Positions 5,447 through 23,658 of a DNA stretch of 23,679 bases are shown piece after piece (positions within the stretch are counted from its first letter, which is position 1; each line of letters starts with the position of its first letter). Both the position numbers and the translations under genes were made by a program. The stretch is from a virus. The stretch lies in the IMG/VR virus record IMGVR_UViG_3300042991_000055, positions 1-23,679 of that record; one strand, 5' to 3'. The notes beneath the pieces were generated by a model. It was not told the origin of the DNA. It saw only the letters and a list, made by a program, of their open reading frames with translations, and made no database searches.

Positions 5447-5779
5447 TTAATGTAATTCATTAATTTGATGTTGTAAATCAGATAATGTTTTCTGAACATC
5501 ATTTTTACATATCTTACAACTACTTTCAATTTCTCTTATTTTATCTTTTAAGACATCTGTAGTTTGAGTTGTTGATTTTAATTCAATATTCATTTCTTGT
5601 AGTTTTTCATTTATATTCGCTAAAGCCTTTTTAAATTCTTCAAGATAACTTGTAAGAGATTTAACTGCTGTAGTAAACATATATCTACCTAATACTACAA
5701 TTATAATTATAAGTATTGAAAATAATCCTGTAAAGATTGCTACTACTAACGCTTCATAATTTGGAATTTGTGCTATCAT
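5447..5779 (-). CDS. Small single-pass membrane protein with long coiled coil
   Basis: A 110-residue protein with one strongly hydrophobic segment (residues about 9-31, ending VLGR) followed by a long hydrophilic helix (about 45-110) with heptad-like spacing, rich in Lys, Glu, Asn and Gln. A CKIC pair lies at residues 88-91. The topology, a short N-terminus, one anchor and then a coiled coil, resembles inner-membrane spanins (Rz type), but no outer-membrane partner gene is evident beside it. It sits inside the tail block, 17 bases from a ring-protein gene, so a role in tail assembly or genome entry at the membrane is also possible. I do not recognise a named family. The coding call is secure from length, tight spacing and clear domain structure; the function is open. 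Confidence 0.65.
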   Translation of the reverse strand: MIAQIPNYEALVVAIFTGLFSILIIIIVVLGRYMFTTAVKSLTSYLEEFKKALANINEKLQEMNIELKSTTQTTDVLKDKIREIESSCKICKNDVQKTLSDLQHQINELH

Positions 5780-19392: not shown

Positions 19393-21582
19393 TTATACTT
19401 TACTATACCAAGTTCTTTTAAATATACTCTCCACTTTAATATTTTTATCTTTTATTTTTAATTCATTTATAAGAGTTTCCTTTATATCAAACTGTCCTAC
19501 AATCAATGCAGAAGTTCTATCAAAGTTTCCTTTTAAATTCCATTTTTGTAATTCTAATAAAGTCGGTAAGTCATATATATAATGAAATGTATAAACTTGT
19601 TTACCATTTACATCTATACCTCTTTTAGTGTATAACCAATCTTTAAGATAACCTAAACCTGCTAATTTTCTTCCCGGACTACTACAACTAACCCCATATA
19701 CTCTACTTATACTTCCAGCTAAACTTTTATCCCAAGCCATAGTTGGCTCTTGTGCAAGTTTATGTACTTTCTTCCACATTTTACTATTCTGTAACATAGT
19801 ACCCCTATCACTCTCAAACATAATCATCGCATTATAATAATCAGCAAGTAAATGAACAAATTTATCAGTATCTTCCACTAACGGTGTTCTACCACAATAT
19901 GAAGCTACTAATATATCTCCAGGATTACCTACTATATTATTAGGTCGCATATATACATATACAGACGATAAAGAATCTTTATATGATATTTTATCTTTAG
20001 CTTTATCTAACGCTACAGGGTCATACCATATTCTATATAAATTAGTAGGTATTTGACCCCCAATAAACATAGGTGGATAAAATATACGTAAACAACCATG
20101 AGCATCATTTCCCCTACTTAAAGGTACTTCTTCAATATATTGATGAATAATATGGTTATTATCTTTTAACCAATTATTAGTTTTAAATACAACTCTATCA
20201 TATTCTGTAGTTAACCAACCATCTCTATAAAATCTAATCTTAGGGTCATGTTTTAATACATCAATCCATTGATTCAATTCTACTGATGTAAATATATTTT
20301 CAGTACTAGCACTAAATGATTCACTAGGTGAGTTAGAATACATAGCACAATATACTATATATTCTTCTTGTGATTTTACAAGTTTACTATGAGTTCTTTC
20401 TTTTTCAGATATTGTTATAGCTGTTTCCCAATCTGAATTACCATGTTTATCCATAGCAAATGTTCCATCTAATACTCCTTGTAATCCCCACCAATAAGGT
20501 TTATAGAAACCACACATCGTATGTCTTGAATTTTCATCCCATACGTTTTCAAAACACATAGCATTAAATGAAGCTGGATTATAAAACCAATCTTCAAACT
20601 CTTGCCAATTACCAGCTTTACTACCCCCTGTACCAAATCCAATAATCTGTCCTGTCATAAATGCGCCAGTTCGAGTTGTTGGTTCAGTAACACCTAACAT
20701 TTTATTTAAACCTGGAGCATCATTTAATTCATCTACTTTAATCTTCTTTGCATCTTTACCAACAGCAACACCATAATTACCTTGACCAAACGATAAAGAT
20801 ACTATACGTGATTGATAACCTTGTTTTATATTACTATTCTTAGGCTTCCAACCTAACATTAAATCCTCTAAATCTTCACTTATATAACCTCTATTAAATG
20901 GAGTATTTGATTCATACCAATCTAAATTCTTTTTACTCATTGCTGTAATAGCATTACCTCTGACCAAATATTTAGTATCAGATGCAATATGTAATACAGT
21001 TTGAAATGGATTTAGATTAACATCATTAGCACTATCAGCTCCTTCCATATAACTAAATCCACCACGTCTTGATTTACCAACTACTAAGTGAAATCCATTC
21101 TTTTTTGAAAATTCTTTTACTTTAAAATACCAATATTGAGCATCTACAAAAACTGGAAAACCTTCTCCTTTATTACCTGTGGAAGCATTTACATTAATAC
21201 TGCTTTCATCAAGTTTATTCATCCTACTATAATTAAGAAAATTATAATGTTCTCCTGTAATACGTAATGGAAGTATTTTACCATCTTTTACTTTACATGA
21301 TAAAGTAACCCCATTTCTTCTTTTAAATTCTTCTGATTTTCTAAAGTTTCTAAAATCAGGACTATCGACCACAGCATTAGTGTATACCCCAGTTTGTTCA
21401 AATCTTTTTGCAGCAGCACTAAATAATTCTGTATTAATAAATATAAAATCAATATTAAATAAAAATCCTCCACTTTCCCCTATAAGAAAATCATTATCAG
21501 GATCTACAAAACCACATTCAGTTGCAGTTTTATATCTACTCTTATCTTCTCTTATAAATGATATGAAAGATTCAGGTCGCAT
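19393..21582 (-). CDS. terL: Terminase large subunit
   Basis: A 729-residue packaging motor: an N-terminal ATPase drives DNA into the capsid and a C-terminal nuclease cuts it. The ATPase site is seen as a deviant Walker A, VGKSRRGGFS at residues 168-177, where the lysine precedes SRRGG as in lambda gpA. A Walker B, KIKVDELNDAPG (280-291), ends in D284-E285. A G/T-rich coupling segment follows (TGQIIGFGTGG, about 310-320). The nuclease half has acidic candidates D521 in WYDPVALD and E590/D592 in MFESDRG, consistent with an RNase H-like fold. The ATG at 21582 shares one base with the upstream stop (TAATG), and the portal starts five bases after its stop. This is the best-supported call in the head block. 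Confidence 0.88.
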   Translation of the reverse strand: MRPESFISFIREDKSRYKTATECGFVDPDNDFLIGESGGFLFNIDFIFINTELFSAAAKRFEQTGVYTNAVVDSPDFRNFRKSEEFKRRNGVTLSCKVKDGKILPLRITGEHYNFLNYSRMNKLDESSINVNASTGNKGEGFPVFVDAQYWYFKVKEFSKKNGFHLVVGKSRRGGFSYMEGADSANDVNLNPFQTVLHIASDTKYLVRGNAITAMSKKNLDWYESNTPFNRGYISEDLEDLMLGWKPKNSNIKQGYQSRIVSLSFGQGNYGVAVGKDAKKIKVDELNDAPGLNKMLGVTEPTTRTGAFMTGQIIGFGTGGSKAGNWQEFEDWFYNPASFNAMCFENVWDENSRHTMCGFYKPYWWGLQGVLDGTFAMDKHGNSDWETAITISEKERTHSKLVKSQEEYIVYCAMYSNSPSESFSASTENIFTSVELNQWIDVLKHDPKIRFYRDGWLTTEYDRVVFKTNNWLKDNNHIIHQYIEEVPLSRGNDAHGCLRIFYPPMFIGGQIPTNLYRIWYDPVALDKAKDKISYKDSLSSVYVYMRPNNIVGNPGDILVASYCGRTPLVEDTDKFVHLLADYYNAMIMFESDRGTMLQNSKMWKKVHKLAQEPTMAWDKSLAGSISRVYGVSCSSPGRKLAGLGYLKDWLYTKRGIDVNGKQVYTFHYIYDLPTLLELQKWNLKGNFDRTSALIVGQFDIKETLINELKIKDKNIKVESIFKRTWYSKV

Positions 21583-21905: not shown

Positions 21906-22167
21906 TTATTTCCTTTTCATCTTGTTTGCAAAAATTACTTAAAAATTTACCAACAACACCTAATAGTAAAACACATCCGACAACAATTTTAACAGCTGTT
22001 GGTGAAAACGTTTCTTTAATTAAATCATAACCAAATATACCAGTTGCACCAATAGCGCTACATGAATATAATAAAGCATCACCTATTTTTTTACATCTAA
22101 TTTTTGTATGTTTGGTATAATATCTATTTACTACTTTACTCATTTTAGATTTTACCATTCTTGTCAT
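21895..22167 (-). CDS. Holin candidate, two membrane segments
   Basis: A 90-residue protein with a basic N-terminus (MTRMVKSKMSK), two membrane segments (about residues 29-48 and 58-76) and a charged hydrophilic tail (CKQDEKEINES). Length, two spans, basic start and charged end match class II phage holins, which permeabilise the inner membrane to time lysis. It lies just after the spanin-like pair and uses an ATGA overlap with the upstream gene. Its stop is TAG. Three Met codons occur in the first nine residues, so more than one start could be used. The holin role is inferred from topology and context; an uncharacterised membrane protein is the alternative. Confidence 0.62.
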   Translation of the reverse strand: MTRMVKSKMSKVVNRYYTKHTKIRCKKIGDALLYSCSAIGATGIFGYDLIKETFSPTAVKIVVGCVLLLGVVGKFLSNFCKQDEKEINES

Positions 22168-22598
22168 AATAAAACTAATAATATGATTAATAATATATTT
22201 GCTCCAATACTTCCACTAAGCCAACTTTTTAACTTTTTATTATCCCCCTGTAGGGTAAGAATATATAGACCTTTAGTTATTGTATCTTTCTTCAATACAG
22301 CTTTATCTATTCTACATAAACTATCATTCATCTTCCAACCTTCTATTTCAATTCTCACATCTCTCATTGTTTCAAACTGTAAATGACACTTTCTTTCTAA
22401 CGTCTTATTTAATCTTCTTGCAACCGAACCCTCATATAAACTATCTCTTATAATTAACCAACTTGGTTTAGTAAAACATAATTCAGTTGTATCTCCCTTT
22501 ACTATCTTATAGCTATTTATTCTTACTGAAGAATTTTGTGATGTCATCTTCAATGGCACTATAAGAAGTACTATTATTAAACTTAGGAACTTTCTCAT
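22164..22598 (-). CDS. Exported protein with C-terminal membrane segment, spanin-like partner
   Basis: A 144-residue protein. Residues 1-20 form a signal-like hydrophobic start (MRKFLSLIIVLLIVPLKMTS), without a lipobox cysteine. A charged periplasmic-type middle follows with three cysteines (C41, C71, C95), and then a short C-terminal membrane stretch (about 128-144, GSIGANILLIILLVLL). This two-ended membrane layout recalls unimolecular spanins, which join inner and outer membranes for lysis, but without a lipobox that fit is incomplete. Its first 86 bases overlap the upstream coiled-coil gene in another frame, as Rz and Rz1 do. It ends in TGA inside an ATGA overlap with the holin candidate. 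The GC-rich 10-mer copy 3 lies in its 3' part. A lysis role is likely but unproven. Confidence 0.6.
   Translation of the reverse strand: MRKFLSLIIVLLIVPLKMTSQNSSVRINSYKIVKGDTTELCFTKPSWLIIRDSLYEGSVARRLNKTLERKCHLQFETMRDVRIEIEGWKMNDSLCRIDKAVLKKDTITKGLYILTLQGDNKKLKSWLSGSIGANILLIILLVLL
22246..22255. repeat. GC-rich 10-mer CCCTGTAGGG, copy 3
   Basis: Exact third copy of the word also present at 3804-3813 (reverse complement) and 17154-17163. It lies inside the 144-residue gene. A one-mismatch relative, CGCTACAGGG, lies at 20021-20030 in terL. Confidence 0.5.
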
Positions 22599-22839
22599 GT
22601 ATATATTTTTTTAAAACTGTTATACTATCATTTAATTGAAATATTAAAGAATCTCTATATAATCTTCTTATTACAGCTTCATTTATCTTTATTAAATTAG
22701 TTTGAGCAATACTATCATTTTTTGATTCTACATTCTCTACAGTATTTATTTGTAATTTAACATTATGTATTTGATAACTAAGATATGCAAATATTCCAAG
22801 TAATAATACAATTACAATTATTCCTTTATAATCTTTCAT
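22513..22839 (-). CDS. Membrane-anchored coiled-coil protein, inner-membrane spanin candidate
   Basis: A 108-residue protein with an N-terminal signal anchor (about residues 6-22, IIVIVLLLGIFAYLSYQ) and a hydrophilic helical remainder with heptad-like segments (KNDSIAQTNLIKINEAVIRR, DSITVLKKYIHEK). This is the layout of Rz-type inner-membrane spanins. The next gene starts 86 bases before its end in another frame and encodes an exported protein, so the pair mirrors overlapping Rz/Rz1 arrangements. It lies 29 bases after the 59-residue gene, within a cluster that also holds an endolysin-like enzyme and a holin candidate. No lipobox or enzyme motif is present. The lysis role is inferred from topology and context. 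Confidence 0.6.
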   Translation of the reverse strand: MKDYKGIIVIVLLLGIFAYLSYQIHNVKLQINTVENVESKNDSIAQTNLIKINEAVIRRLYRDSLIFQLNDSITVLKKYIHEKVPKFNNSTSYSAIEDDITKFFSKNK

Positions 22840-22868: not shown

Positions 22869-23048
22869 TTAATTTAATCTATTAGTTATTATATCATCTA
22901 TATTTTCTTTTATCGTCCCTGTATTATAAGTAAACTCATATTTCTTACCTTCATAATATGTCCAATAAGTTCGTTTATCGCCATTTACTAAAACATTCAA
23001 ACTACATAGTTTAGTAATCACTACAAAATCATCACTCATTTCTTCCAT
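22869..23048 (-). CDS. Small soluble protein, 59 residues, unknown function
   Basis: It starts at the ATG at 23048, one base after the stop of the endolysin-like gene (TAATATG), giving MEEMSDDFVVITKLCSLNVL and so on. The frame is open for 23 more codons upstream, but using them would mean a 68-base overlap with the enzyme gene and a hydrophobic start unlike the rest, so the downstream ATG is preferred. The product is small and beta-like, with WTYYEGKKYEFTYN in the middle and no membrane segment. I do not recognise it. It lies in the lysis cluster and is followed by the spanin-like gene after 29 bases. Confidence 0.5.
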   Translation of the reverse strand: MEEMSDDFVVITKLCSLNVLVNGDKRTYWTYYEGKKYEFTYNTGTIKENIDDIITNRLN

Positions 23049-23049
23049 A

Positions 23050-23658
23050 TTATAATTGTTTAAAATCCTTTTCTTCCAATAAAGTATATGTAAATAGATT
23101 ACCATACAATTTTGCACTTTTTTCTACTATTCTAATAAATTCATTCCAATCTTTCATCTTAGATAATACTTGACAAGCAGCACTCCAATTATCTATCGAC
23201 ATGGACATAATTCCAGCATGATGGATATTTATTCCATCATATTGTGATACAATTGCTTTACTAGGATCAATATCATATATTAAGTCTTTATTATTATCTC
23301 TACATATTTTTAATATACCACATTGTACTAAAGCATTGTATTTACCTAAATGTAATCCAATTTTATGAGATTTTACATATTGATTTGGTATTATACTTGC
23401 TGTACCTTTTGGATTCATAGGATGTTCCATAAAGTATTTACCCGCTAATGTTGTACTATCGGCAATGAATAATATTTCTTTACCATTTAGACCATATAAA
23501 ATACCGATGTTATCATCAAATAAATTATCTACATCTAAATTATCATTGCGAATACCGAATATATTTATATTATAATCTTTAGTAGTATCGTAGAATCTAT
23601 AATTTTTATTACTATAAACTTTTTTGATATTTTCTATTGTAATTAATGATTTATCCAT
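23050..23658 (-). CDS. Endolysin-like cell-wall enzyme
   Basis: A 202-residue protein from the ATG at 23658 (MDKSLITIENIKKVYS). The frame stays open upstream through a TTG at 23676 to the window edge, so a longer product cannot be excluded. Conserved-looking blocks in order are NINIFGIRND, EHPMNPKGTASIIPNQY (about 78-94), IGLHLGKYNALVQ (100-112), CRDNNKD, and GINIHHAG followed by DNWSAACQV (142-164). The last pair puts H146/H147 and S159/C162 in an order like the H...SxxC catalytic motif of YkuD-type L,D-transpeptidase folds. I have seen this N-P-M-N-P-K-G ... W-S-A-x-C-Q-V pattern in phage lysins. It probably acts on host peptidoglycan during lysis, next to the spanin-like and holin candidates. 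There is no signal peptide, so a holin would be needed for export. Confidence 0.62.
   Translation of the reverse strand: MDKSLITIENIKKVYSNKNYRFYDTTKDYNINIFGIRNDNLDVDNLFDDNIGILYGLNGKEILFIADSTTLAGKYFMEHPMNPKGTASIIPNQYVKSHKIGLHLGKYNALVQCGILKICRDNNKDLIYDIDPSKAIVSQYDGINIHHAGIMSMSIDNWSAACQVLSKMKDWNEFIRIVEKSAKLYGNLFTYTLLEEKDFKQL

Follow-up and report, generated by a model that had tools for sequence, protein, structure and literature searches.

A gene at the end of a viral contig raises the question of whether a protein with the active-site order of L,D-transpeptidases (YkuD-type enzymes) can serve a phage as its endolysin. The contig, hereafter the window, is the whole stretch of 23,679 nucleotides that was analysed, and it represents part of a crAss-like phage genome: the major capsid protein that it encodes has a Pfam Crass_capsid match (E 5e-53), and its terminase and portal match PHROG families. 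The gene and the codons of its predicted active site, whose positions were computed from the open reading frame (ORF), are located as follows.

23053..23658, minus strand: endolysin candidate of 202 amino acids with a predicted L,D-transpeptidase (YkuD) fold; ATG at 23656-23658, stop codon at 23050-23052
23221..23223, minus strand: codon of His146, the predicted catalytic base, kept in 83/83 family representatives
23182..23184, minus strand: codon of Ser159 in the S-x-G-C motif, kept in 83/83
23173..23175, minus strand: codon of Cys162, the predicted nucleophile, kept in 82/83

Motif and family of the 202-residue protein

A single-sequence scan of viral contigs gave no relative of the protein, and an alignment profile was needed to find its family. 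By tblastn, 24 of 50,697 phage records carry a member. These include crAss-like phages from the families Intestiviridae and Crevaviridae, DAC16, SJC03 and other Bacteroides phages, the P2-like phages ACA1, ACA2 and proACA1-A of Pseudoalteromonas, and two phage records that exceed 600 kb. A profile scan confirmed at least 580 IMG/VR stretches from 600 candidates, of which 80 were retained, and 77 loci in bacterial assemblies; around some of the bacterial copies, no phage genes stand out. The sample comprised 171 domain copies from 169 loci, one copy being dropped for short coverage. The alignment holds 171 rows (the window protein and 170 domain copies), and 83 representatives, the window protein included, remain at 70% non-redundancy.

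The initial annotation had singled out the strings GINIHHAG (residues 142-149) and NWSAACQV (residues 157-164), and the motif spotted there is real as a sequence pattern and above chance, with His146 present in all 171 aligned rows and Cys162, which had been numbered correctly, absent from two. The spacing of 12 residues that was given for these strings applies to the gap between H146 and S159, while the strings themselves are seven residues apart. Among the 83 representatives, N32, R37, T69, G85, Q93, H103, Q112, R120, H146 and S159 are invariant and C162 is kept in 82; the family pattern reads GINIH-R/K-...-WSAGCQV. Residue 161 (23176-23178) is Ala in the window protein, and Gly precedes the Cys in the other 170 rows. 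S-x-G-C around the nucleophile is the family rule and SxAC occurs in the window protein alone, where Ala161 may modulate or weaken the enzyme. The two rows that deviate at Cys162 are a Polaribacter copy with Thr in place of the catalytic Cys (L127) and a Bacteroidota copy with a gap there (L133), both of them possibly inactive forms.

Profile searches place the protein outside the named domain families. It has no Pfam or NCBIfam match, and four weak NCBIfam names were dismissed as unrelated. YkuD (PF03734) does not match it and is likewise missing from the Pfam families found in 11 phage members; the Tlde1 domain (PF10908) does not match it either and is found weakly in one of those 11 (E 0.032). 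A lysin-like pattern had also been seen in HPMNPKG and GLHLGKYNALVQ; these segments do include family-conserved positions, but they are not recognised by any lysin model of Pfam or NCBIfam. PHROG 3000, a family of unknown function, matches at E 4e-29, and PHROG 33083, which is labelled endolysin, at E 3e-10 with an overlap confined to the C-terminal part of PHROG 33083. DUF5675 (PF18925) was rejected as the same family, with no Pfam match and an hhalign probability of 2.3%. A phmmer match to 5oi9 (E 0.039) and the PDB matches of the family profile (E 0.67 and above) were taken as noise. By a simple hydropathy scan, the protein has no transmembrane (TM) segment.

Some copies of the domain occur in larger proteins. 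In Hymenobacter sp. CA1UV-4, a 957-amino-acid protein (L168:2847-5717) joins LSDAT_prok, a SLOG/TRPM-like sensor, DUF4231 and SLATT_1, a 2TM effector, to a lysin domain at residues 717-956. A second Hymenobacter copy (L233/L235) shares residues 250-612, the part compared, at 67-74%, and frames of 957 or 990 amino acids with the lysin domain were seen in two of 120 Hymenobacter genomes. This fusion, which has no PADLOC match, could be a suicide-type defence protein with membrane and wall-cutting parts. An N-terminal PG_binding_1 domain is over the cut-off in L113 and slightly under it in L148 and L152, and an inserted segment that resembles peptidoglycan-binding repeats by eye is present in L012, L013 and the Hymenobacter proteins, L012 being without a Pfam match. 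The neighbours of some bacterial copies include a phospholipase resembling the T6SS effector Tle1 and two DUF2589 proteins; such copies might serve as secreted effectors and not as phage lysins.

Predicted fold and bond specificity

Foldseek retrieved no PDB entry at an E-value of 0.001 or lower for the AlphaFold2 model of the 202-residue protein (pLDDT 96.7, pTM 0.92). The first rows of that list are ribosomal proteins with a TM-score of about 0.13, which were dismissed as meaningless, and Pgp2 appears in row 7 (E 0.12); a viral model library gave six matches at E 0.001 or better, none of them functionally named. Re-alignment by VIA, which solely re-aligns the Foldseek list and was given 994 of the top chains, returned 46 rows. 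L,D-transpeptidase-fold enzymes account for 44 of these, though not independently, since a single protein, LdtMt2, supplies about 26 of the 44 entries. The remaining two rows are 4xxt under another title and an unrelated endolysin at Z 2.4. Pgp2 is the top match (Z 9.3, rmsd 3.9, 127 residues aligned), and Csd6 (Z 8.7, rmsd 4.0, 126 aligned), Bd1075 (Z 8.4, rmsd 4.2, 134 aligned) and DpaA (Z 7.9, rmsd 3.6, 130 aligned) are also listed. By VIA's own guidance, a Z near 8 alone can be chance, and the fold is assigned because the list is nearly pure and Z then drops, not because of Z alone. A second model, of a member 31% identical to the window protein (pLDDT 94.2) and built with largely the same relatives as the first, gave the same fold in 22 of 24 VIA rows (about nine of them LdtMt2), with Pgp2 at Z 9.1 and an unrelated row at Z 2.1.

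The active-site order points the same way. Hhalign against YkuD domains from bacterial genomes aligns H146 and C162 with the His and Cys of those domains, at weak probabilities of 22% and 14.5%, whereas a three-sequence YafK-like set gave no active-site match and a chance-level match elsewhere. DSSP assigns short strands to residues 145-147 and 163-165 of the model. The YkuD-like fold and the His/Cys order proposed in the initial annotation are in line with these comparisons, and the protein very probably has, as judged from the two models, the L,D-transpeptidase fold.

The available text of the Csd6 paper gives H(S/G/D)X14-19C as the catalytic motif. The spacing of H146 and C162 in the window protein is X14, and the distance from His to Cys is 16-20 residues across the family, within the range of this motif and comparable with the spacing of 16 given for Csd6 in the same text, which puts the two residues of Csd6 3.96 A apart in space. 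The position after the His departs from S/G/D: it is His in the window protein (H147, which had also been named as a candidate) and is not conserved among the 83 representatives, with R in 51, K in 27, H in three and G and T in one each, in contrast to the Gly of Csd6, Pgp2 and Bd1075. According to the accessible part of PMC8263019, the second residue past the Cys is Arg in transpeptidases, and the hydrolase DpaA (YafK, LdtF) has no such Arg. This position is Val in 81 of the 82 Cys-bearing representatives; hydrolysis is a better guess than transpeptidation because the Arg is missing, as it is from DpaA. The protein is most likely a cysteine hydrolase that would depend on a holin for its release.

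The L,D-carboxypeptidases Csd6, Pgp2 and Bd1075, all of the YkuD fold, are the best structural matches of both models. Because of this likeness, the bond between meso-diaminopimelate and D-Ala (mDAP-D-Ala) is suggested as the target, and we put even odds on its being the main bond cut. The known hydrolases of this fold have roles that are not lytic: Csd6 and Pgp2 trim peptide stems and, like Bd1075, are bacterial wall-trimming enzymes (9-16% identity to the window protein over the aligned part), and DpaA detaches Braun's lipoprotein (Lpp), unlike the role proposed here (10% identity over the aligned part). The fold could also have been retuned in an endolysin with a different target, such as the gamma-D-Glu-mDAP or the D-Ala-mDAP bond. 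DpaA shows that the fold can act beyond the L,D-peptide bond (PMC8263019, available part), and the family has diverged so far that PF03734 misses it and that R or K follows the His in 78 of 83 representatives. The best structural matches nonetheless act at mDAP-D-Ala, and a different target bond appears unlikely.

Gene order and exchange with lysozymes

Downstream of the endolysin candidate, the window carries a series of small genes followed by the terminase; the upstream side of the gene falls past the end of the contig. The following features were located there.

22869..23048, minus strand: small ORF of about 59 amino acids directly after the lysin gene, start chosen by eye; cr8_1 likewise has a 59-amino-acid ORF there
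22513..22839, minus strand: protein of 108 amino acids with an N-terminal TM segment and a long polar stretch, inner-membrane spanin-like topology by hydropathy
22164..22598, minus strand: protein of 144 amino acids, second of the spanin-like pair, overlapping the 108-amino-acid gene in another frame; signal-like N-terminus and C-terminal TM segment
21895..22167, minus strand: protein of 90 amino acids with one strong TM segment by hydropathy, a speculative holin candidate (PHROG holin at E 0.34 only)
19393..21582, minus strand: terminase large subunit (phrog_6681), marker of the slot

The 108-residue protein matches a PHROG Rz-like spanin at E 0.038 only, together with weak unrelated names, and the pair of the window gave no BLAST match at E 0.01 to the pair of its relatives, which it resembles in topology only. 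In the relatives, too, the first protein has an N-terminal and the second a C-terminal TM segment, and in L002, L003 and L009 the second begins with an LLSC lipobox-like string. The 144-residue protein has no lipobox Cys despite its signal-like start, unlike these three. Taken by topology, the pair looks like spanins and may act as such. Elsewhere in the window (5447-5779), a 110-residue protein with a strong N-terminal TM segment, a polar coiled-coil-like remainder and weak PHROG matches only lies amid structural genes.

The same arrangement, with the spanin-like pair and the terminase downstream of the family gene, is found in seven crAss-like records (ctcc615 has one annotated pair member). 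A gene of about 1 kb lies upstream in these seven, labelled PD-(D/E)XK nuclease in three, ATP-dependent helicase in three and unnamed in one, with one or two tiny ORFs intervening in two records. In cr127_1 four extra small genes precede the terminase, in cr8_1 the 59-amino-acid ORF precedes the pair, and in R. jaberico the record origin falls between the family gene and the terminase. The gene neighbours in the DAC16 and SJC03 records carry no annotation labels.

In cr3_1, ctbg_1, Carjivirus, cr11_1 and cr110_1, a GH108 protein occupies the slot, with one or two small membrane-protein genes of this kind between it and the terminase. GH108 is a glycan-cutting lysozyme family. The five proteins are annotated as endolysin, lysozyme or glycosyl hydrolase and all exceed the GH108 cut-off; they are unrelated to the present family and presumably have the same role, in Carjivirus as in other Crudevirinae. 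Two or three further small genes lie between nuclease and lysozyme in the GH108 records, and the gene content of the slot therefore does not correspond exactly; several of the downstream pair proteins have homologues in the other group (R. jaberico versus cr3_1, E 3e-12). In 14 records chosen from the match lists, GH108 is present in five and the family in the other nine (window included), and none has both. Among the 30 best terminase relatives, 13 appear in the family list. All of the remaining 17 appear in the GH108 list, whose best 60 of 173 matches include none of the 13. R. jaberico belongs to the Crudevirinae and carries the family, while the five subfamily mates compared have GH108, and therefore an exchange probably occurred within this subfamily.

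P2-like phages are a second, unrelated case of exchange with a known lysin. The family member gp35 of ACA1 lies between tail tube and tail chaperone; in the corresponding place, a pesticin-like muramidase is encoded in PY3, and phiO18P has genes for a holin and a muramidase. The 52 features of the ACA1 record include two holins but nothing labelled as an endolysin, and the record of the cultured crAss-like phage crAss002 has no annotated endolysin either.

The ORFs surrounding family genes were also compared with distant ones. The near set comprised 135 of 156 ORFs, after 15 had been omitted by hand (two own-family copies and long, spurious or remote ORFs) and six others. Among the best 25 of 145 PHROG families matched by this set are endolysin families with four and three members and holins with three and two, whereas the best 25 of 138 families matched by 109 far ORFs include no lysis family. 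Small ORFs (200 amino acids or less) with one to four TM segments make up 32 of 74 near and 13 of 63 far ORFs (Fisher p 0.006, with rows that are not independent). Gene order and the exchange with known lysins back the endolysin role suggested in the initial annotation, and from this replacement of lysozymes and muramidases we consider it quite probable that the 202-residue protein is a phage endolysin.

A wall enzyme of this fold could instead be a non-lytic L,D-carboxypeptidase that edits the wall by trimming stems, the true endolysin being some unrecognised protein. The closest folds, Csd6, Pgp2 and Bd1075, fit this explanation, as do the second wall enzymes near some loci: Pfam CHAP occurs in two of the 135 near ORFs, and, assigned by eye, an amidase-like gene lies beside the family gene in L145 and NlpC/P60- or CHAP-like genes lie beside it in L109 and L156, hinting at two-enzyme cassettes. 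No match to GH108, Amidase_2, glucosaminidase, Phage_lysozyme or NlpC/P60 exceeds the cut-off in the window or in eight records whose titles describe complete genomes; below it are weak lysin matches to NlpC/P60 in a 219-amino-acid frame directly after the cr271_1 terminase (E 0.004), to Phage_lysozyme in a 1188-amino-acid frame of cr8_1 (E 0.003) and to Amidase_2 in SJC03 (E 0.018). Against a wall editor, the family stands in for known lysins: for the GH108 lysozyme in crAss-like phages, where the adjoining genes are homologous, and for a muramidase in P2-like phages. Moreover, the Pfam scan covered 54 of 81 crAss002 and 19 of 52 ACA1 proteins (27 and 33 annotated proteins were left out), and the 15 families matched by these mostly unassigned proteins include no wall enzyme; a PHROG scan of the same 73 proteins found no lysis family among the best 25 of 40 families. 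A purely editing role is quite unlikely on this evidence.

The location of the ACA1 copy inside the tail operon would suit a component of the virion that locally perforates the wall during entry. Yet in relatives of ACA1 that spot is taken by a muramidase, in one case together with a holin, and the crAss-like copies adjoin the spanin-like pair and the terminase. The visible part of the gp35 annotation note mentions no mass spectrometry, while the notes of some other proteins do, and an entry function is very improbable. A true transpeptidase that strengthens the wall, and thereby delays lysis or excludes other phages, would share the common fold but is scarcely credible given the missing Arg at C+2 and the exchange with lysozymes.

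Proposed lysis pathway and its place among phage lysins

The best explanation for the locus as a whole, to which we assign a probability of roughly 0.6, is that it encodes an endolysin of L,D-transpeptidase fold which likely cuts mDAP-D-Ala, is released by a holin and is followed by a membrane-protein pair that opens the outer membrane; its lytic activity is predicted from sequence, models and gene order. The protein would be a cytoplasmic cysteine hydrolase to which a holin gives access to the wall. His146 would then activate Cys162 for attack on a bond of the peptide stem, most likely that between the L-centre of meso-DAP and D-Ala. The Bacteroides wall is directly cross-linked. The mesh of such a wall would open upon this cut because that D-Ala bears the 4-3 cross-link and the severed bond lies inside it, and the adjoining pair would then disrupt the outer membrane. 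A more far-reaching proposal is that the family is the sole endolysin of several crAss-like lineages, cuts mDAP-D-Ala in 4-3 links and has changed places with lysozymes in two or more unrelated types of phage; we regard this as tentative, at slightly less than even odds, and the second wall enzyme adjacent to the family gene in some bacterial and prophage loci speaks against a sole role there.

Phage lysins of the YkuD fold have been proposed before, and the present family, its spread and the lysozyme exchanges appear to be new. The accessible text on PhaLP (PMC8310338) lists 10 YkuD-type phage lytic proteins under PF03734, cd16913 or PF10908; these share the domain type with the window protein, which matches neither PF03734 nor PF10908. 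The same table holds 747 PF00877 and 260 C39 entries, at odds with the earlier remark that a cysteine-dependent lysin would be unusual. The initial interpretation as a whole is partly supported, and what is unusual is the fold rather than the cysteine dependence. YkuD is counted among endolysin domains in the available parts of PMC13284279 and PMC5017753. The endolysin of Vibrio phage Martha 12B12 was predicted by synteny as a soluble protein with weak L,D-transpeptidase likeness in HHpred (PMC9239132, mBio 2022, available part); its gene is likely VPCG_00031, a DUF5675 protein, and the present family is not DUF5675. Tlde1a attacks the wall with an altered L,D-transpeptidase fold and has carboxypeptidase and exchange activity (PMC9638812, accessible text), but it is an effector delivered by the T6SS. 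A 2025 survey of pig crAss-like phages assigns GH73 and GH108 lysozymes by lineage (PMC12053484, available portion). The family is absent from that portion and from those of PMC11476376, PMC9456138, PMC12596118, PMC10727944, PMC10136315 and PMC12729407. In the open-licence literature, we found no paper on the family and no characterised endolysin that has the L,D-transpeptidase fold or cuts mDAP-D-Ala cross-links.

The family fills the gap of the missing endolysin in crAss002 and ACA1 and provides a concrete enzyme to assay, and many hypothetical phage proteins could be named through it, given the number of stretches confirmed in one IMG/VR scan. If lysis by opening L,D bonds holds true, a fold that builds and trims the wall would be usable as a lytic weapon, and one more site would be added to those at which endolysins cut.
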